This document shows positions 1-26,509 of a stretch of DNA of 32,502 nt, piece by piece. The first letter of the stretch is position 1. The number at the start of each line of letters is the position of its first letter. A model generated the notes under the pieces. That model made no database searches, was not told the DNA's origin, and saw only the letters and a list, made by a program, of their open reading frames with translations. Source of the stretch: Saccoglossus kowalevskii (taxonomy: Eukaryota > Hemichordata > Enteropneusta > Harrimaniidae); assembly GCF_000003605.2 (NCBI RefSeq), contig NW_003126388.1, positions 476,262-508,763 of the forward strand, written 5' to 3'. Position numbers and translations under genes: made by a program.

Positions 1-72
1 CGCCCTTTAATGCCAAAATAGTGGAATTAAATAGCAAAAAACATGGTTGTTGGTAAATCCTATATTTTCAAC

Positions 73-81
73 AGAATAATA
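73..81 (+). promoter_or_regulatory. Probable 3' splice acceptor and translation-start context
   Basis: A pyrimidine-rich run ends in AG at 73-74 and is followed by AATAATA and the ATG at 82. This suggests that a 5'-UTR exon lies left of the window. The context (A at -3, G at +4) is a strong initiator. It makes the MGCGAS start the mature N-terminus rather than the upstream ATG at 43. Confidence 0.5.
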
Positions 82-3000
82 ATGGGTTGCGGTGCCAGTG
101 CAACTATTAGGTCACCGGCCGAAGACGCGCCCCGTGGGCGTGAATCAACAGGATACTCAGGAGCATACGGCGGCATACACGGTGACTATGGGAATAATAC
201 CTCATTCGAAGCTGTAACAAGGATCGAGGAAGAGGAATTCGACGACGATTATTACGATAGTGTGCCACTGAAGGAAGAATTCGATCAGTGGATCTCTGAT
301 TTGAACAACATGAATGACTATGCTGACCATCAGGCTCTCCGTATTTTAGAGGAAATGGCAGAACATATGGACCCAACGGACAAAGAAGCTACGATCAAAA
401 AGACTAATTATCTAATTAAACTAAATTATCCTAAATTATTTGTAAAAATGTGGCATAACTTGAAAAATTATCAACTAGTACTAGACAAGTCAAAGCCATC
501 GGGAATCAACCCCACTGAGATCCGTGCTGCATACAATCTCGACTGTGCGAAGGTTGTGCTTTGGAACGCTGCCGATTGTTCCCCGAGAATGTGCTGGGAA
601 ATCGGAAAATATGGAATTATAGAAATACTTTTATCCCAGCTCAAACAACCTGAATATGCTCCAAATAAACTGACAGGAACTGAAAATTACTCTTCAATCA
701 ACGCTGACAGAGTGGTGCGTTCTACCACGGGAATTTTGCACAATGTTATTCGTAACTGTTTAGATAACAGGCACCATTTCCGCGAAGCTAACGCGGTAGA
801 ACTATTATCCAAGTACATTCATTGCAAACATGCTACTATCCAAGCAGTTTCCGTTCTCATTTTGGCTTACATCGTCAAAGATGAAGAAGTTGACAAGATT
901 TCTACAGGAGATGAAATAATTAAGTTTTTGTTGTTGGTGTACGCGGATGCGTTGAACGGCGATGAGCACATGTCACCTATGTATATGTTTGAAGTAACTG
1001 AGATCGTTGATGGGTTGATATATCTTGCAGCAAATGATGCCAATAAGGTAAGGAAACATACCAAATCTATTCCTTTGGGGATGCGTTAATATACTAGTAT
1101 ATCTTACAGCAAATGACACCGTCACGGGAAGAGAGCATAACACATATTCCATCAACAAGAATAACGCCCTCATCACATCGTTGCTACGTCTAAGCACCGT
1201 CCCTCAACACGGGACGGTGGTCTAAGGGAGATTAGAGTTGACGTAGATGGGACGCCGATATGTTTATTTTTTGACAGCTTTTTATCCTATTTATGAACCA
1301 GCAGTCCACATGGTATTAAAAATAGACATTACTGATAAAACATTGTTCACATATGTGATGGTAAACATTTAACGTGTTTTCCATATTTCGCCAATACCAG
1401 CCACAAATTATTGGAGAAAACGGCGGATTTCTTTTACTGATTTGTCGCATTTGGATTGTACACATATAAACCACCTTTGTCAAACAGATTAAAGCAGAGG
1501 GAGTCATCACCTGCGCATGCGTCAGATGTTTACAAACAAGCTTCTACCCTTGAGCCTTTGCGTTTTTAGCGTGTGTTGTTATCATCGCTTGGGACTCAAT
1601 TCCCGCGCATGCGCAGGTGACGACCCCGCTTTAATATAAGAGAGAAACATGTCTGAAAAGCAAAACAAAAATATAAATCATAGTAATACATTGACAAAAA
1701 GGTAAAGAAAGTTGGAGTGACAGTTGAGACCATATTATTTCCCAGCATGCCTTGCAGTTTATACTTTTAACGTATGTGGTTAAACATTTCTTCGATTTTG
1801 TTTTTACTACTGGACATATATCCCCACCTGACACAGATATTTAATTGTGCGTAAGTTGTACAAATGGAAATGTGTTAGGGGTTGTTTTCTGGATTCTGAC
1901 TTGAAGGAGACTAAGAGATAAGTAAACAATTGCTACAAAGTTTAAATTTCGAGGACATGCTTTGGCAAAATAGTTGGAATTTTTGAATATAGATAGTAAT
2001 ATTATAATATAGATAGTTAGAAGACAAAAAATATAGTCAAAACAAATCAAACATTAGAAAAGAGATTGCGGATTGTGGGAAAATAGTTTGTTATCAACAC
2101 AAATGTCGCGCATGCGCGGCGCGACGACCACCGTTCTTCAAATTATGAACATACATCTATCCATCTGTTTTGTACTTGTGAGTTTGTTTTGTTGTGAAAC
2201 ACATCTGAAATATTTATTCTATTTGAAGTTTAGTATTCTTATAATTCTTTATATTAATCGGACGTTTCTCAAAATAATTTACCACTTTTTTTCTTCGTTA
2301 GGTGAAATTCGTGAATAACGACGTATTGCCCTTACTTGTGGCAACTCTGACGTCCGAGTGTTCAACGGAAGAACACTGTTTAGCGGCTACTGCAATTTGG
2401 ACATTAGCATTCCATGCCGATAACAAAGATCGTATCCGGAAAGAAGAGGGATGTTTAGAAGGTATGTTCAACATGATCATTATAATCTCAAAGTAGGAAC
2501 AGAAAAATAGAAAAGATTTCTTGTTTTCGCTAATCGGTGAAATTCATTGGTCATAACATGGACTGTATGTGAAAACATTATGCAACAATTTGTAGTATTA
2601 GATAAAATTGTACCAACTCCTTAACAGATTTATGGAGATGGTAAAATTAGGGTTGAAGGACCACAGACTTCGCGCAGTTTGTGTTCGAATTTCGCGCAAA
2701 CAAGCAATGTATTTTACTCGCGTTGTATATACATCGTATGGCACACGACGAATGTGATGCTGTGAAGAACACTATCTAAAATGGCATTACACGAAAAGAT
2801 TTGAAATTAATAAAGGGCGACGGTCTTCACAACGCGTCGCGTTTTATATTGGCCCCATGCTAGGCGTACAAGAACGTGCATAAAATCCAATGTTTAAAGG
2901 GCGGTGGTCGTCGAGCCGCGTCCTGTTCGATATGGGACTCATAGCGACGTATATAACGCGTGTAAAATACATTGTTTATTTACATGAAAATCGAACATGC

Positions 3001-6000
3001 GCTACGCGACGACCACCGCGCTTTAAACGAAATCCTAACGCATGACCAGCACGGTAACCACGTCCCTTCAAGGTCCATTTGTCCATGAATGGAACAATAT
3101 ATTTTTGTTGAGCAAGAGCACTAATTAAATGTAATGACAACATTTTTTTCTTATAAAGCTCTGACAAAACTCCAGCACAGTGACAACTCTGGCCTTAAGA
3201 AAGCTTGCAATGGTGCACTATGGGAACTCCGTGATGGTGGTGAAAGTGTGACTCGTGCTGTGGAAAGTAGCGGTCATGTGATGATAAGCTACCAATGGAA
3301 CTGTCAGAAATTAATGGTGCAAGTAAAAAATCGTTTGAAAGATGCGGGATTTAAAGTGTGGATGGACGTCGAACAAATGGGTGAGTTTATTTGAGAATGT
3401 CATGTTTTGTCGGCATTTGTTTGCTTGAAGCAGGATATCTCAAAATGTTGTGGACGATTTTATTACAAAATGTCGACCAATCAACAGATCAGTTATCATG
3501 GAGACAGAATGTTTCAACTAATATTTTCAGATAATTACACAATAAGTAAGCTGTGAATGAATTGTCATGATATTTTTAGTAGGGTTGTTTTTGAGACAAG
3601 GTCAAATTAACATGATTTTGGAAGGAACTTGAATCTAGATTCGGCTGGCATGGAAACAGTGTTTTTTTGGGAAGGAATCTGCACCATTATCATGATTGTC
3701 AGAATAAAGACCAGTCTTAAGAATATGTAGCATGACGTTCATGGGTGTTTTTAATCCCCGTTCAGACGAAGTCCCAAAATGGAGACTATTAATTTGGGTT
3801 CCGTCCGTCCGTGCGTCCGTCTGGAGCTATTTCTCGGACACCCTTTGACCGATCTCGTTCAAACTTGGCATACAGCAATGTATGATGACCTACATATGCA
3901 CGCCAATTTTCGTTGTGATTCGATTAAATATGGCTGACTGGCAGCCATTTTGACCTCAAACTTGCTAAATTCTGATATTTAACATGTCCGGAACTGTTTC
4001 TCCGAGCTGCACAGGGTGATTTCAATCAAACTTTGTATGGTGATCATGCATATTGGGTTATAGGTGCACGACACTTTTTTTTTTGAGATTCGGTCCAAGA
4101 TGGCCGACTGGCGGCCATTTTGTTTTTTTCTGTTCAAAGTCTGTACATACAATGTAGGTACCATACTTCAAGATAACATAACACCATGTTTTGTTTTGAG
4201 ACATTTGATCAAATTTGTTTAATATCTTAAAATCACTGTCTTTAATGTGTCCGGAACTGTTTATCGGGGCTGAATAGGGCGATTTCAATCAAACTTTGTA
4301 TGATGATCATGTATATTGGGTTACACATGCACGTCATATTTTTTTCAAAATTTTGACCAAAATGGCCGACTTGCGGTCATTTTTTTTTTTTTCCCCATTT
4401 TTTGTGCCGATTCCTCTGAAAGATATGGCCTGATTCAGTTCAAAGTTTGCACATAGGTTGTATACTGCAGGGTAACACAACATGTTTTGTCTTTAGATGT
4501 TATCAAATTTGTCAAAATGGTGGCCATTTTGTCAAAAAAAACGAAAAATATCATTTTGTAATATGTCCAGAACTGTTTCTTGGAGCTGAACAGAGCGATA
4601 TGGCCTGATTCAGTTCAAAGTTGAATAGGCCATTTTCAATCAAACTTTGTATGATGACCTTACATATTAAGTTATGGTGCAAGCCATATTTCTTTTGGAG
4701 ATACTTGAACAACAATACCCGACTGGCTGCGTTTTTCTTTCATGCTATTTCCTCTGTAAGATATAGTTCAACGTTTTCACGTAGGTACTATACTGACAGT
4801 AACGCAATCTATAATCTGTGTTAGTGTTAAAAAAAATTGATCTTTCATTTCTATATGTCACTTGCTCCATGGTTTAATTTAAATAAAATTCAAACACGCG
4901 CTGTGCGACGACCACCACCCTTTAACTTACTTGTCACAATGTAATGTTACAGTAATACACTTTGTTCTGCTTCACAGTAATTTGTGTATTTTGATTTTGC
5001 ACGACTGATTTTGATATTACTGTACATAAATATTATTTTTATCTATTTCCTAGGAGGTTCAACACTGGAAGCAATGGCGGGCGCTGTTGAAAATGCAGAT
5101 GTTGTTCTTATGACAGTTTCTGAAAAATACAAAGACAGTCAAAGTTGTCGTTCTGGTAAGACATTGGGTAGCTCATTGTATCCACGAATCAATCGGCCAA
5201 ATTGTAATCTGTAATCGTATAACCTGACAAGGTCGCGCGAGTTGCACCCTCCGCAGCGCTCCAAACCCAACACAGTTAGAAGGGTTTGATGCCGTTTAGC
5301 CAGCGAGGGCGCCACACACACCTACAAATGTACATGTCAGGTTATACTGTAAAATGACTAATTTTCACTGGGTTTAAATTTCACTGATTTACCATTTCAG
5401 GCCTATTCCGTGGGTTTTAAATTCACTGTTTTGTCATTGTGTTCTAATGTGTTCTATGCTCAATTTTACATATTCACTGGGTTTTAATTTAGCGCATTTT
5501 CCAGTCAGCGAAATAAGCAAAATTAAAACCCAGTGAATAATTAACCCTTTTACAGTAATTGGTACAGATCAATTTATACTTATTGTACGCAAGCTGTATA
5601 AAATGTCAAACATAACAAAATTTTACGCCTACAGATAACCAACAAATAATATTTGATTGTATTAACAAAATCATTTCTTTCTTTACGAAACAGAGGCTGA
5701 ATATGCATATAAACGAAAAAAGACAATCATACCGATTCGAGTTCAACCCAATTATACTCCTGATGGCTGGTTAGGAATCATAGAGGCAAACAATTTATAC
5801 TACGACTTCAGTGCAGCCAACGCCATGGCAACAGTGATGCCAGACCTCATACGAGAGCTTGAGAAATCGATAGGAGGTAAACGAGTAAAGAAAACAGTGG
5901 AGCGGGATAAGGGTAAGGTGTTATCAATATCTGATAGTGTACAAGGTTTACTATTAGCTATGCTGAGTGGGGGAAATGGTATACTGAAATCAACAAAAAC

Positions 6001-6727
6001 ATGTTTAAACTTTGTAAATATACTTATAACAAATTTATTTCACCAATTTGAAAATGATTTCATTTGAAGTCAATCCCATTCAAATGAGACGACTGGATTG
6101 GTAGCTTTCATCATTACGGAAAGCGTTTGCGAATGAATCAGACAACAAATGTGTACTAATTAACTGGCATTTTAGTTTGATGACTTATAACGTGGACGCC
6201 TTTAATGACTACAGAGTCAGAACGTTATTTTCCTTCACTTGTTTTCACTATATTTTACTGTAAACTGTAAATTTTGCAGATTCTTTTTTGAAAATTGCAA
6301 CAGTTTCTAATGGCCAGTCCATTAATGAATTTACCAATATATATTAACAACTTTCGATTCTTGGAATACCAGTGTCGAAATTTGTATTCTGTCATTGGCG
6401 ACACGTAAATACAGGTCAATAATTTTATTGTTTTATTATTGTACATTTTTAGCTCAAGTAGTTCAGATTGGAACAACAGGATCTACACCTCTACAGACGT
6501 CAGCTGATGCATGGACAAACAGTGACGTCAGTACATGGCTGATGCAGAATAATCTCAGTCACATGAAAGGAAGATTTTCCGGATACACGGGGGAGGATGT
6601 GAAGGGACTGAAATCAGTACTAATCAAGGCGCCAGAGTTTTTCTATTCGTCTGCAAGTACAGATAAAGGAATAAAAACTCTTTTGGATGTTGTGAAGTTG
6701 GAGAGAGCGCTTGAGAAACTAGACTAG
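82..6727 (+). CDS. ARM-TIR-SAM protein, predicted lipid-anchored TIR-domain (putative NADase) signalling protein
   Basis: Six exons join in frame: 82-1047, 2302-2461, 3159-3380, 5054-5155, 5694-5912, 6453-6727 (647 residues). Residues 1-6 read MGCGAS, fitting MGxxxS/T myristoylation with Cys3 available for palmitoylation. An acidic stretch (49-59) precedes ARM-type helical repeats to about residue 403. A TIR domain follows at about 414-545, with HVMISY at strand A, WMDVEQMGG at the BB loop and CRSEAEYA around the putative catalytic Glu484. A SAM-like domain ends the protein (about 573-647, starting ADAWTNSDVSTWL). The family is known from invertebrates. The order ARM-TIR-SAM differs from SARM1 (ARM-SAM-SAM-TIR), so this is not a SARM1 orthologue. 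NAD cleavage is inferred from Glu484. The start is set by an acceptor-like TTTTCAACAG ending at 74 and a strong Kozak context (A at -3, G at +4). An ATG at 43 would lie inside that presumed 5'-UTR intron. Exon joins are confident; activity is not proven. Confidence 0.88.
1195..1219. other. Small GC-rich hairpin in intron 1 of the ARM-TIR-SAM gene
   Basis: CACCGTCCC and GGGACGGTG form a perfect 9-bp stem with a 7-base loop, in AT-rich surroundings. The remainder of intron 1 (1048-2301), apart from the family A copy at 1489, shows no gene. Confidence 0.45.
1489..1634 (-). mobile_element. Family A MITE (TTAAAGC...GCTTTAA), single-unit copy in intron 1
   Basis: The copy runs from TTAAAGC to GCTTTAA. 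Sub-terminal inverted GCGCATGCG blocks and a CACCTGCGCATGCG/CGCATGCGCAGGTG pair form the arms. Its core is the inverse of the unit amplified at 7551-8201 (ACGCAAAG, TGGGACTCAATT). It sits in intron 1 of the ARM-TIR-SAM gene. Confidence 0.8.
2893..3027. mobile_element. Family B MITE with GGTGGTCGTCG inverted ends in intron 2
   Basis: The ends TTTAAAGGGCGGTGGTCGTCG and its inverse bound a 135-bp element, and arm similarity continues inward to an inverted TTCGAT / ATCGAA pair. The TTAAAG end and the GTCGTC motif resemble family A. Related fragments occur nearby at 2812-2892 (TAAAGGGCGACGG), 4895-4924 (GCGACGACCACCACCCTTTAA), around 2108-2132, and at the very left edge (CGCCCTTTAA, 1-10). Confidence 0.7.
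3755..4830 (+). repeat. Family F repeat, degenerate array in intron 3 of the ARM-TIR-SAM gene
   Basis: It starts with TCCCCGTTCAGACGAAGTCC and GTCCGTCCGTGCGTCCGTC. At least three diverged units of about 250 bases follow, each with (C/T)GGAACTGTTTCT, a GCTGNANAGGGYGATTTCAA-like block, CAAACTTTGTATG(A/G)TGA and ATGGCCGAC(T/G)NGCGG(C/T)CATTTT. No sustained frame is seen. It resembles a widespread invertebrate interspersed repeat; I cannot name it. Confidence 0.7.
4895..4924 (-). repeat. Family B terminal fragment
   Basis: The stretch ACGCGCTGTGCGACGACCAC followed by CACCCTTTAA matches the right end of the family B element at 2893-3027. The matching left end is not found in this intron, so it is a truncated or rearranged copy. 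Confidence 0.5.
5345..5557 (+). mobile_element. Family C MITE (TACTGTAAAA ends) in intron 4 of the ARM-TIR-SAM gene
   Basis: The ends TACTGTAAAA and TTTTACAGTA are inverted and flank TTCACTGGGTTT arms. A second copy with the same internal order lies at 31907-32118. A TA duplication at the ends fits a Tc1/mariner-type non-autonomous element, though that assignment is an inference. Confidence 0.8.
5913..6452 (+). other. Intron 5 of the ARM-TIR-SAM gene, no distinct content
   Basis: A 540-base AT-rich intron with a clean GTAAGG donor and TTTTTAG acceptor. No repeat family identified elsewhere in the window is visible here. Confidence 0.7.
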
Positions 6728-7513
6728 AATGCACTAAACCAATTCGATATATTTGATATCACTACAGTGTTGAGATAAAAAATATGAACAACAACTCAGT
6801 TGAACATCTTTTACCAGTGTCAATATAGTAAAATGTTTATATTTTATATGTACATATCAAACCCATAACATTTTCATTAAAATGCTTTACAAAACGTTCC
6901 TTTGTAAAAGTACTCTACTGGGATAATTTTACACCAAGGAAATTGCGTGTATGATGTTTTATTGAACTTAAAATCCACCGCCTAAAACCATAAAGATATA
7001 TTTCTTGGACATTCTCATACTTTTGGGGTACTTCCAGGTTGAAAAAAAGTTATAAAAAAAAAACGAGGACTGGTGGATTGACCTGCATGCGCCAGTGTCC
7101 ACCTGTATTTTATACCTGCATAGATCCACTTCAAGCTTAACACAAACAGACATGTTATTGGATATATGCATGTACATTTGTTTGATGGTCCGATTCAAGA
7201 TGAACAGTACACTTTCTCACCATCTCAGAGGTGTGTAAACGGATTCAGTTTAAACTTTGTACTTTTCCAATTTTTCACAGATTGTTGGAAATGTTCAAGA
7301 ACTCACTTGCAAATTAACCTTGTCTCACACAAAAGAGGTAAATCTTCATAAATCCTGGCATGTAGTGTATTCTAAAAGTGTGGTGCCTTTTACTTTGAGC
7401 TAGTGTAGGTATCATGCATTCTTCAGTCAACGATGGAACAACTACATGGTATACTTATAATTAAATTTATTCACACCAACGTCTTAGTGGGGTATTTGCT
7501 ATCATAGTACCTG
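6728..7513. other. 3' UTR of the ARM-TIR-SAM gene and intergenic DNA
   Basis: After the ATTAAA at 6876 the stretch is plain AT-rich sequence up to the tandem MITE. Short open frames here lack any recognisable domain. Confidence 0.6.
6876..6881 (+). terminator. Polyadenylation signal variant ATTAAA for the ARM-TIR-SAM gene
   Basis: ATTAAA lies about 150 bases after the stop codon at 6725-6727. It is the common variant hexamer. A T/GT-rich stretch (cgttcctttgtaaaag) follows within 30 bases, as expected downstream of a cleavage site. Confidence 0.45.
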
Positions 7514-8223
7514 TTAAAGCGGGAGGGTCGTGACATGCGCATGCGCGGGGGAAATTGAGTCCCAAGCGTTGATAACAACACATGCTAAAAACGCAAAGGT
7601 ACATGGGTAGACGCTTGTTTGAAAACAATGACACGCTTTGGCCATCTGACGCAGGGGGGAAATTGAGTCCCAAGCGTTGATAACAACACATGCTAAAAAC
7701 GCAAAGGTACATGGGTAGACGCTTGTTTGAAAACAATGACACGCTATGGCCATCTGATGCGTGGGGGAAATTGAGTCCTAAGCTTTGAAAACAACACATG
7801 CTAAAAACGCAAAGGTACATGGGTAGACGCTTGTTTGAAAACAATGACACGCTATGGCCATCTGACGCGTGGGGGGAAATTGAGTCCTAAGCTTTGATAA
7901 CAACACATGCTAAAAACGCAAAGGTACATGGATAGACGCTTGTTTGAAAACAATGACACGCTATGGCCATCTGATGCGTGGGGGAAATTGAGTCCTAAGC
8001 TTTGAAAACAACACATGCTAAAAACGCAAAGGTACATGGGTAGACGCTTGTTTGAAAACAATGACACGCTATGGCCATCTGACGCGTGGGGGGAAATTGA
8101 GTCCTAAGCTTTGATAACACCACATGCTAAAAACGCAAAGGTACATGGGTAGACACTTGTTTGAAATCAATGACACGCTATGGCCATCTGACGCATACAC
8201 AGGTGACGACTCCCCCACTTTAA
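7514..8223 (+). mobile_element. Family A MITE with six internal tandem units
   Basis: The ends TTAAAGCGGGAGGGTCG and CGACTCCCCCACTTTAA are inverted repeats like those of the single-unit copies at 1489 and 26347. Between them the core is repeated, starting at 7551, 7659, 7767, 7876, 7984 and 8093 (period 108 or 109). Units 3 and 5 match each other, and units 4 and 6 do so closely, indicating duplication of a dimer. Minus-strand open frames across it are by-products of the repeat. Confidence 0.9.
7551..8201 (+). repeat. Tandem array, six units of 108-109 bp
   Basis: Every unit begins GAAATTGAGTCC and ends near GGCCATCTGA(C/T)GC. The change of period from 108 to 109 comes from a run of 5 or 6 G residues at the unit junction. 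Unit type alternates (TTTGAAAACAAC versus TTTGATAACAAC), giving a 217-bp higher-order period. Confidence 0.92.
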
Positions 8224-10094: not shown

Positions 10095-20949
<10,855 letters not shown>

Positions 20950-23900
20950 ATGTTGCAGCCAATTCTTCACAAGTTACACAATCAAAGAATAGTGCTGGCT
21001 AGTGGTTCCCCAAGGAGACAGGAAATACTCCGAAATATTGTAAGTGTCGATCTTAGTAACAATTTAGAGTTCACGCATTAATCTAATCCTAACCCCGCCC
21101 CTCTGGTGACCACGCCCCATGCCAATTGTATATACCTGGTACCCCCATCCGGGACCCCCATCTTCTGGTCTTATACAAGTTACTTGGAGGGGCATATTGT
21201 ATTATATTGGGGGTGGATTGTTAGGCTTAGGAAGCCTTTAGGAATTCTTGCCACAAATCTAATTATGCCTCTCGTATGTGTAATCTGTACGGTAATTGTT
21301 GAATTGAAATCATAATTGGAAGCTTTAGTCGACAGTTTGTGTGTGTTTTTGTTCTAGTTGTTGATTGTTATTGTTGTTGCGGTATTGGTGGCGGCGGCGG
21401 CGTAGATGACTATAGACAGACAACTCAAATTGCACTTTGTTTTGCAGATTATTTTGCTGTGCCTAAGTGGGTAACCATTAGAATCTGTGACAGGGATGTG
21501 GAATTTTCCAAACAAACAACGAATCTGTACAGTGACATTTTAAAACAAACAAATATACACACATTTTACAGTAAAAAATATATATATACAAACATTTAAT
21601 AGAGAAACTCGAAAAAAAAAATTACTTTACAGCAATATCATGATGAATAAGTAGCGTAAAACTGAGTAAAGAAAACAAAAACAAAGAATAAATTGGTCAA
21701 TCTCTCCGCTTCACAGGGCTTCTCATCGTCAACCCTATAATGTAATGAAAATACATTCTAACTGTCATATTATCATTTAATTATCTTGTAGGGTTTGAAA
21801 TTTGAAGTAATTACTTCTAAATTTGAAGAAAATTTTGACAAGTCATTGTTTTCATCTCCAGTGGATTATGTAAATGAAACAGCAAAAGAAAAGACGCTGG
21901 AAGTAGCAAATCGACTACAGGGAGTAAGTTAGACTGGCAAAGTCGGGACTTCTTTTTTGGTTAACAAAAAAAATATAATTGTCAATTTAGCCTTTTTAAC
22001 GTGATTGCGAAAACTAGCATGACTGTGAAAGAAATCCCTTTAGTGGTCAGGTTAGTTCTCGCGATCACACTAAAAGGACTGAAAAACAATTAATTATATC
22101 TTTTTTTAAAACAAAAAAAAAGTCCCGACTTTGCCAGTCTAGGAGTAAGTGAATGTTTTAAAGTGACACTTTTGCATGTGAGTCATATCGAACATGAAGC
22201 AATGTGACAACTATGTTGATTTAATTAATTATACAAGAAATTACTGTGAATGAGAAGTTTTACCTGTCAATCAAATTGTGATGAATATGCCATTTGTTTT
22301 TGTCAGCCAGGATGTCCAGATATTATCATAGGAGCAGACACTGTTGTTGTAAGTATATTACTGATTGTGATAAATTCGATCATTTGAGTGTCAGATATTT
22401 TTTCCGTCTAAATTTCAGTTTTTCACATTTTGTAAAATTGTGACTAAAATTCATCATCATTTTGGACTATAAAGACAGATTCAGATATATTGCTTTTGGT
22501 TTTTGAACAAAAGTGTTGTCAACATTCCATGTGGAGGTGTACAGGCTGTACAAAATGATTTTGTTGAATTGCCAAAAATTCAAAGTGGCACTCAAAAGGG
22601 TAATTAGTTAAGGGGGGAGATATAAATTTCACCATTTCCGCCAATACATGCTGCAATGCAAGGCGGTAGGAAGCAAAAATTAGTTGGCCTGGCCATCCAT
22701 TGAGGGCCGTAGACCAGAGGCGTATGTTGACGTGGGCCGAAGTGGAGGGACGTGCAGAAGTGGTCCGGCCATAGCCGGTATGGCCGGTATGGTTCCTACG
22801 GCCTTGCAATATTGAATTTTTGTTTTTAAATTTTTGTTTTTAATGCAAGTAGTTTAATGAATGCAAATAATTGAAAGCAAAGGAAATATGTTACAATCCT
22901 ATTACATGTACTATACTTTACAACAATATTACAACCTAAAAATTGGATCAATTCTGTGTGGAGATTGTTATAAGTACACAATGTGAAATGTCAACTACTT
23001 AGGTCGAGTGGATGTAAGGATTGTAGCACTTTTCCACTATCAAACTTGGATTTCCTAGCTTTTCTCAATAAATGAATTTTACAGTATAATTTGAAAGATA
23101 AATGCGATTTGCATGTATAGTCTTTTTAGTTTTTATCTTATCCACTGTTACATAGAACTCTCAATTATTGATGTTGCTGGTAATAAGGATATAATTAAAA
23201 ATAGGACTTTATAATATTTATTGCAGTCATTGGGTGAAAAAATACTTGAGAAACCCCAAGATAAAAATGATGCTTTCACAATGTTATCATCTCTTAGCGG
23301 TAAAAGTCATACTGTATATACGGGAATGGTTATACTTACAAAGACAGGTATTTATCTGATTTATAACCCTCTGCAGTATCTTTTTAAAAACCTACCTAAT
23401 TCTTCTCAGCCAATCAGAATACTCTATTGCAGGGCTTAATGTACATAATGCCCTGCTTCCCTAATACGATTTCTTGTGTCGTGTCATGTCAATGTCCCAC
23501 CATAGGTGATTTTCCGCTCACTGCGAGATCACGCATATTGTGTGAAATGCGGGAACTGATTACAAAAATTGAACAATTTCATTTGGATTTCCATTTTTTA
23601 TAGGTTTTTTTTATAGCAATGTTGAAATGTTGATCTTTTAGAGGGGAATATTGCATTTAGATATCCTTACTTCGTCAAAATTGATCATCATCAAATGTGT
23701 ATAGCACATTATTATGTGTGAAAATAGCAAAAAAAAACTTTCACATTAGTCAAATCCCACACAATGTTTTTATGTCACTGTGATGCTATGATCATTGTTT
23801 ATCCGGTTTTGATGTTCAATTTCACGAAAACCACGGGATCTCAAGGTGAACAGAAAATGGTCTATTGTACTGTGGAATACTTTATTTTTGCTTATTAGTC

Positions 23901-25231
23901 CCCGTTCGGACGGAGTCCGAAAACGGGGACTTATGTTTTGCCCTGTGTGCGTCCGTCCGTGCGTCCGTGCGTCCGTGATCACCTGTATCTCGAACATGCA
24001 TGGACCGATTATGTTCAAACTTCACTCATACATCACACATTATATGGGACATATGCACATGCATTTTTTTCATGATCCGCTTAGCAATAGCTGAATGGCC
24101 ATTTTAAGGCCGAAAATGCATTAAAATCACGTATTTTCACAATTCCAGAACCGGATCTCAGTCATGCATGCATGGATTTTGTTCAGATTTAGTACAATGT
24201 GTTGTACATATGCAGGTGCATTTCGGTCATGATCTGCTTTGAATGTATATGTTACTCAAATATGAACGGAACGGGGACGTGTCATTGACAATGACTTGTT
24301 TTGTATGGAATTTATTTTCACTGATTTTTGATGAGTTTAATGTGAAATATAGGAAAAAAAGTATATTTGCTGGATTTTATTTTCACGGAATCATCCCTTC
24401 AACGAAAATGGCGAAAATACATTCCAAGCGAAAATAAAGCATTCTGCAGACTGTGTTAATCCCTAACATATTGGTTAAATGTAACGAAAGATCTTGTGTG
24501 ATATAAGAATCAAGTGTAAGCTTTGACATTGAACAAAATTTAGCACTACTGCCAATGAGAGGAAACACTGATATCACATAAAGGTTCACTCCCCCATAAC
24601 TTTATCTCACATATTACTCTCATGTGTGGTTTCTTAGGTATATAATTATATACTTTATATTGATACAGACAAACAGTCAAAGCACCCATTTGACATTCTT
24701 CAGTTCCATGAAGCCACTGATGTTGTATTCGGTGAATTAACACCAGAGATAATCCATGGCTATATAGAGACTGGAGAACCTATGTAAGTAAATTCCACAA
24801 CACTTATGTTTCATTATTGAGAATCAGGGATTGGGAATTCCTGGATTTTATTCATTCTACATACAAGCCATGACAATAGGACACATATGCGTTACAGTAT
24901 CATCAATGAAAGGTGGTGAATGAGAATGCACAAGTATAATATTTGTTTTGTGATTTGCAAGACTTCAATTGCAATCTTCATCGTATTTTCATTATAATTA
25001 CATGTCCATACAAATTAAATTTCCATTTCATTTCTTTATTGAGATAACTGTATGTTGAAAAAATTTATTTAACCTGTTTCATGTGATGATTTCAGGGACA
25101 AAGCTGGAGGTTATGGAATCCAGGCACTCGGTGGAACGCTAGTACAAGAAATACGAGGAGACTACTACAATGTCGTCGGATTCCCTTTACACCATTTTTG
25201 TAAACAATTTCTTAAATTGTATGCGAAATAA
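20950..25231 (+). CDS. Stand-alone Maf domain nucleotide pyrophosphatase (ASMTL N-terminal type, dTTP/UTP class)
   Basis: Six exons join in frame: 20950-21039, 21792-21923, 22307-22348, 23227-23347, 24669-24783, 25096-25231 (211 residues). Maf signatures appear in order: [12 protein letters not shown] (16-27), IIIGADTVV with the general-base candidate Asp85, [20 protein letters not shown], then [14 protein letters not shown] (167-180). Family knowledge: Maf enzymes hydrolyse non-canonical or selected nucleoside triphosphates to monophosphates. The DKAGGYGIQ form fits the YhdE dTTP/UTP subgroup. Similarity is highest to the Maf half of animal ASMTL (RRQEIL, VANRL, FCKQ), but the reading frame stops right after this domain and no methyltransferase exons are recognisable downstream. 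An in-frame TAA at 20902 with no intervening ATG fixes the start. A polyadenylation signal AATAAA lies at 25499. A MITE has duplicated the donor of exon 2. Confidence 0.93.
21921..22150. mobile_element. 212-bp fold-back MITE with 9-bp target-site duplication at the Maf exon 2 donor
   Basis: The element spans 21930-22141. Its ends TAGACTGGCAAAGTCGGGAC and the exact inverse match for 22 bases, and the two arms stay alignable almost to the centre, so the whole unit folds into one long imperfect hairpin. It is flanked by identical GGAGTAAGT copies at 21921-21929 and 22142-22150. A 9-bp duplication fits Mutator-like elements best; the family is otherwise unassigned. No coding capacity is seen, so it is non-autonomous. 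Each flanking copy contains the GTAAGT splice donor. Confidence 0.9.
22349..23226 (+). other. Maf intron 3 with an unassigned GC-richer block at 22600-22805
   Basis: Most of the intron is AT-rich. The block at about 22610-22805 is different: a run of G, GGCGGTAGG, and a GCCGGTATGGCCGGTATGG direct repeat. It may be an inserted sequence, but no inverted ends or target duplication are evident. The 96-residue open frame across it on the minus strand matches no family I know. Confidence 0.45.
23509..23858 (+). mobile_element. Family E MITE in Maf intron 4
   Basis: The inverted ends ATTTTCCGCTCACTGCGAGA and TCTCAAGGTGAACAGAAAAT bound 350 bases collinear with 12929-13279. It stands only 9 bases from the split family D copy beginning at 23868, so this intron received at least three insertions side by side. 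Confidence 0.85.
23868..24450 (+). mobile_element. Family D MITE split by a nested repeat in Maf intron 4
   Basis: The left end (TACTGTGGAATACTTTATTT) and the right part (from TTTTGTATGG at about 24299 to AAAGCATTCTGCAG) belong to family D. They are separated by a family F block starting at AGTCCCCGTTCGGACGG. Removing the block does not restore a perfect copy; about 45 bases of the host element are also missing. Confidence 0.75.
23897..24298 (+). mobile_element. Family F repeat (CCCCGTTCGGACGGAGTCC) nested in family D
   Basis: It begins with a small hairpin (AGTCCCCGTT...AACGGGGACT). GTCCGTCC runs and a segment with ATGTTCAAACTT and ACATATGCA follow, then a GGCCATTTT motif. The same order is seen at 3755. 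The right border is uncertain. Confidence 0.65.
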
Positions 25232-26346: not shown

Positions 26347-26509
26347 TCAAAGCGAGAGGGTCGTCACCTGCGCATGCGCGGGGAAATTGAGTCCCAAGTG
26401 ACAATAACACACGCTAAAACGCAAAGGTTCATGGGTAGACCCTTGTTTGTAAACAATGACACGCTATGGCCATCTGACGCATGCGCAGGTGATGACTCCC
26501 CCGCTTTAA
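26347..26509 (+). mobile_element. Family A MITE, single-unit copy
   Basis: It runs from TCAAAGCGAGAGGGTCG to the inverted CGCTTTAA end. The arms contain CACCTGCGCATGCGC and GCATGCGCAGGTG, and the core carries the same ACGCAAAGGTTCATGGGTAG string as the array at 7551. It lies between the Maf gene and the CNOT7/8 gene. Confidence 0.85.

Follow-up and report, generated by a model that had tools for sequence, protein, structure and literature searches.

The window analysed here is a stretch of 32,502 nucleotides of the Saccoglossus kowalevskii genome (contig NW_003126388.1, positions 476,262 to 508,763), and all positions below count from its first letter. On its forward strand we find a Maf gene of the ASMTL type with six exons. 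Conceptual translation places exon 1 at 20950..21039, where the open reading ends in phase 0 at the donor ATT/GTAAGT, exon 2 at 21792..21923 (132 nt with the left of two donors), exon 3 at 22307..22348 (42 nt, with an acceptor common to both donors), exon 4 at 23227..23347, exon 5 at 24669..24783 and exon 6, stop codon included, at 25096..25231. Exons 1, 4, 5 and 6 are additionally backed by matches in the animal's own genome, and exon 2 by alignment to the Maf domain of human ASMTL (2p5x). With exon 2 ending at 21923, the six exons give an uninterrupted protein of 211 amino acids, which is Maf by Pfam (PF02545, 3.3e-60) and whose closest solved structure is the human ASMTL domain 2p5x (3.2e-73; next 4.3e-35). 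The join of exons 2 and 3 aligns with the human protein except for two additional human residues at this point. When we searched the genome (572 Mb in 4830 contigs) with the protein, the gene was detected at a single locus, with five of the six exons matched and the 42-nt exon 3 without a score, and no paralogous Maf gene was found that could stand in for the ancestral site. Minus-strand exons at about 18470 to 20240, which by eye we take to resemble ABHD18, adjoin the Maf gene. At 31 to 6727 the forward strand carries open frames (31..1089, 5666..6067 and 6329..6727), which presumably belong to a single gene as its armadillo, TIR and SAM portions, again judged by eye. About six 108-bp tandem units occupy 7438..8195, with a related single copy at about 26416..26509 and inverted relatives at 1527..1613.

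The feature under study lies at the end of Maf exon 2. The 9-mer GGAGTAAGT occurs at 21921..21929 and again at 22142..22150 and nowhere else in the window by exact match; in none of 100 shuffled windows did it occur twice. Between the two copies lies an element of 212 bp (21930..22141, not assigned to a strand), which starts with TA, ends with TA and opens with the triplet TAG. Its ends, TAGACTGGCAAAGTCGGGACTT, form a perfect terminal inverted match of 22 bp, arms of 41 nt are 90% complementary, and the fold-back runs along the entire element (−56.3 kcal/mol as DNA, z −11.5; −95.3 kcal/mol as RNA). Inverted ends, folding and family matches together identify it as a non-autonomous fold-back MITE. 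It is short and non-coding, has terminal inverted repeats and exists in many copies, and the length of its target-site duplication (TSD) is constant at 9 bp in the family, with one copy fitting 10 bp better. The original prediction had described precisely this arrangement, a fold-back MITE of 212 bp with GGAGTAAGT exactly at both borders, and the positions agree; 363 genome matches to its end and differing 9-bp repeats at other copies speak for it as well.

The repeat search, the family table and the conceptual translation agree on what the two 9-mers mean for the gene. Each contains GGA, the last codon of exon 2, followed by the donor GTAAGT, and thus spans donor positions −3 to +6. The gene carries two identical donors on the forward strand, 221 bp apart and both matching the consensus at 6 of 9 positions. 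With a duplication of exactly nine bases, in register, both present the same U1 target and will score equally in any 9-mer model. Use of the left donor (21921..21929) preserves the frame and gives an exon 2 of 132 nt and an intron 2 of 383 nt. Use of the right donor (22142..22150) would extend exon 2 to 353 nt and shorten intron 2 to 162 nt; conceptual translation then reads GGA GTA AGT TAG and stops after residue 76. The intron upstream of exon 2 measures 752 nt. The last codon and donor inside the 9-mer, the pair of equivalent donors, the frame kept by the left one and the immediate stop and unproductive product of the right one had all been predicted, and the six-exon translation bears them out. 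Intron 2 is complete even without the element, running from GTAAGT at 22145 to CAG at 22306. The hairpin stops just short of both donors, which are partly open in RNA folds, neither being consistently favoured. We rejected RNA accessibility as a guide to donor choice, since the fold result varies with the length folded and does not separate the two.

We next turn to the family. The 22-bp end has 363 matches in the genome at up to 2 mismatches (175 forward, 188 reverse), compared to 0 for the reversed control. A similarity search with the window element gave 39 other loci among the best 40 of 356 candidates scored, of which 30 with both ends were tabulated together with the window copy (31 rows), the remaining 9 being excluded. 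From a longer subfamily we took 30 loci, with both ends placed in 21 and not in 9. After removal of 3 duplicates the pooled set contains 49 distinct copies. Direct repeats of 9 bp flank these copies perfectly in 20 cases, with at least 8 of 9 matches in 30 and with at least 7 of 9 in 34, while shuffled flank pairs reach the last threshold in 0.68 copies on average and in 3 at most. At 7, 8 or 11 bp every one of the 49 copies misses by at least two positions. At 10 bp L078 alone comes close, with 9 of 10 positions matching, and it is among the 15 copies that fall below 7 of 9 at 9 bp. We take these 15 to be old or damaged copies, or copies with ends placed a few bases off. The expectation that copies with the 22-bp end are flanked by 9-bp duplications was therefore confirmed for 34 of 49 at the threshold of 7 of 9; that they always are was not. 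The repeats differ between the copies, and from this we conclude, by comparison of the family members, that GGAGTAAGT is host sequence and constitutes the target-site duplication.

We believe that the boundary of Maf exon 2 and intron 2 was the landing site of a non-autonomous cut-and-paste element bearing long inverted repeats. The staggered 9-bp cut would by coincidence have framed exactly the bases that are read by the U1 snRNA (−3 to +6). Repair of the gaps would then have placed the same donor on both flanks of the element, which is what the sequence and the family comparison display; the donors are identical because the 9-bp stagger lay exactly over these positions. The left donor would remove the element within the intron and keep the protein, as the intact frame suggests. 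The right donor, if used, would make the hairpin part of the exon and run into the TAG at the start of the element, creating a truncated and probably NMD-prone transcript. How far the allele is tolerated would depend on how often the left donor wins. The mechanism needed is ordinary transposition, and we assign a probability of roughly 0.88 to the whole explanation, that is, a MITE insertion on the Maf donor, a donor pair made by the TSD, and a target hit by chance.

How well the insertion is tolerated is a separate question. The original prediction had called it neutral, which is too strong, given that the rules in the literature for equal donors select the left one at some intron lengths and the right one at others. 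These rules derive from human cells, and the host of the Maf locus is another animal. In the study in question (PMC9225289), minigenes with two identical strong donors and flanking introns of 365 nt spliced from the upstream donor alone. For human transcripts whose donors are nearly equal, the same paper reports that exon-defined events favoured the upstream and short-intron events the downstream donor, the downstream bias being strongest when a long upstream intron is combined with a short downstream intron. The Maf locus straddles this intron-length limit, with 383 nt from the left donor and 162 nt from the right. The insertion could hence be harmful, with the right donor often winning, so that the assembly would hold a low-output Maf allele which is rare or heterozygous in the population. 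The human bias toward the downstream donor fits this reading, as here 752 nt upstream face 162 or 383 nt downstream. The assembly searches, which gave no second haplotype of the site, fit it as well: a search with the whole region found no empty site or second haplotype among the best 40 of 281 candidates, and a search with the joined flanks returned only the window's own place. However, the 365-nt minigenes, whose introns are close in length to the 383-nt intron of the left donor, used the upstream donor exclusively, and the Maf frame is free of lesions, an indication that the left donor is at least partly functional. In addition, a divergence of about 7.5% separates the window copy from the short-copy consensus (pairwise, 10 transitions, 5 of them at consensus CpG sites, and 4 transversions), and the insertion consequently need not be very recent. 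Overall, we regard a harmful insertion as rather unlikely.

One may further speculate that both donors are used and that the hairpin sets their ratio, so that the fold-back shape buffers the effect of the insertion on splicing. We consider this decidedly unlikely. If true, the folded hairpin would hide about 212 nt and bring the left donor to about 171 nt from the acceptor, near the ancestral 162 nt, it would shrink the exon made by the right donor to about 141 nt, and the spare donor would yield a tunable unproductive transcript.

Returning to the insertion by chance, we analyzed the target sites of the 34 duplication-bearing copies. The nine TSD positions are nearly uninformative (at most 0.22 bits). 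Outside of them we observe a palindromic flank preference, TRYA-N-[9]-N-TRYA, with T at +2 in 29 and A at −2 in 24 of the 34 copies and up to 0.7 bits at +2. The complete TRYA is present on the left in 10 and on the right in 9 of 34 copies, where about 0.9 would be expected against a rough background of 0.325 each for A and T. When shifted six bases outward, the same two positions have A in 15 and T in 6 of 33 copies, and the count of A at −2 thereby has the weaker contrast. Of the window's own flanks, TACAG on the left conforms to the motif, while GAATG on the right departs from it. One copy sitting exactly on a donor might suggest that the family actively seeks out splice donors or GT-rich sites, but among the left copies of the 34 duplications GTAAG, GTGAG or a complement appears only in that of the window, and the information lies in the flanks rather than in the duplicated bases, making such targeting highly improbable. 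Since the family favours TRYA flanks and not donor motifs, the element probably hit the donor by chance and is not donor-seeking. Finally, the TA at both ends could by itself suggest a TA duplication, with GGAGTAAGT being part of the element or matching over 9 bp by chance, but the 9-bp repeats at this boundary vary among the other copies and are perfect in 20 of 49, against a shuffled mean of 0.68 and maximum of 3, so that the family comparison refutes this idea, which retains practically no probability, and the flank table likewise rejects TSDs of TA and of 7, 8, 10 or 11 bp; copies ending elsewhere, with the 9-mer inside the element, had been named as what would overturn the prediction, and the family flanks did not overturn it.

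Short family members measure 189 to 228 bp. The consensus of the longer subfamily is about 629 bp with terminal inverted repeats of 133 bp at 90% identity, and the short members look like the arms of this longer form. A TSD of 9 bp, within the 8–10 bp of Mutator-like elements (MULEs), together with long inverted repeats of 133 bp fits this superfamily, of which the family is a candidate member. Around 12 places with a MULE domain (about 1.5 kb on each side, about 3.4 kb for 3 of them) we detected no family terminal repeat at up to 3 mismatches in 16 bases; three places (L052, L057 and L059) gave hits with 4 mismatches only, and at a further one of the 12 (C3234) a copy of the family starts at a distance of 4.4 kb from the domain, facing the other way. 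Within about 1.5 kb of 13 P-type places (PF21787) there were again only 4-mismatch hits, in L090, L092 and L096, and within the same distance of the 2 KDZ places (PF18758) no hit at all. At one MULE-domain locus (L051) the domain is flanked on both sides by several inverted matches of about 163 bp that overlap one another, an arrangement reminiscent of a Foldback-type Mutator element. Relatives of about 600 bp contain a short open frame (37 amino acids in L044), and in none of 86 genome matches is there a long frame around it, the largest being 103 amino acids with an internal stop. A family member of 1965 bp (L103:231-2195) has a perfect 9-bp TSD, an interior degenerate tandem array and no frame of at least 80 amino acids; satellite-like DNA may have been captured by this element or have expanded within it. 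L104 and L105 contain only frames of up to 121 amino acids. For want of a long frame, L103 and the relatives of about 600 bp were rejected as the autonomous partner.

Maize Ds insertions supply alternative splice sites. For a donor duplicated by a TSD, none of the titles and opening lines of abstracts among the matches listed describes an identical case, in a search that mostly left subscription literature uncovered. The Tm1 Mutator/Foldback elements of root-knot nematodes (PMC3169594) share long fold-back-like terminal repeats, MITE-like members and mostly 9-bp TSDs. They differ in having terminal repeats made of tandem repeats, a putative transposase in some copies and no TSD consensus, whereas the longer members of our family have simple terminal repeats of about 133 bp, and the family shows TRYA flanks and no transposase that we could find. 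Muta1, an active mosquito MULE (PMC5225508), has TSDs of 8 or 9 bp, and long terminal repeats are named there as a MULE feature. In Muta1 both TSD lengths occur and target preference is described as little or none; in our family 9 bp dominates and no copy fits 8 bp. The TRYA preference is thus unlike what is reported for both systems. The competing-donor minigenes (PMC9225289) likewise place two donors of identical 9-mer strength before one acceptor, but the Maf pair arose naturally by transposition, its donor is weaker (6 of 9) and a strong hairpin lies between. The Maf locus could in this way serve as a natural duplicated-donor minigene with a clear productive or unproductive readout. In its available text, the paper on fungal stwintrons (PMC12403724) reports no TSDs. 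A further relation is to introners (Gozashti et al. 2022, PMC9860276), which are non-autonomous DNA elements, often with terminal inverted repeats and TSDs of 3–9 bp, and in which the target duplicate can supply a splice site. Introners, however, make a new intron in coding sequence, whereas here the donor was duplicated at an already complete intron, which the element lengthens while leaving a redundant competing donor. The locus shows how a transposon can strike an intron at its most sensitive bases and yet leave a working donor, by a donor duplication related to the splice-site co-option through which introners make introns.
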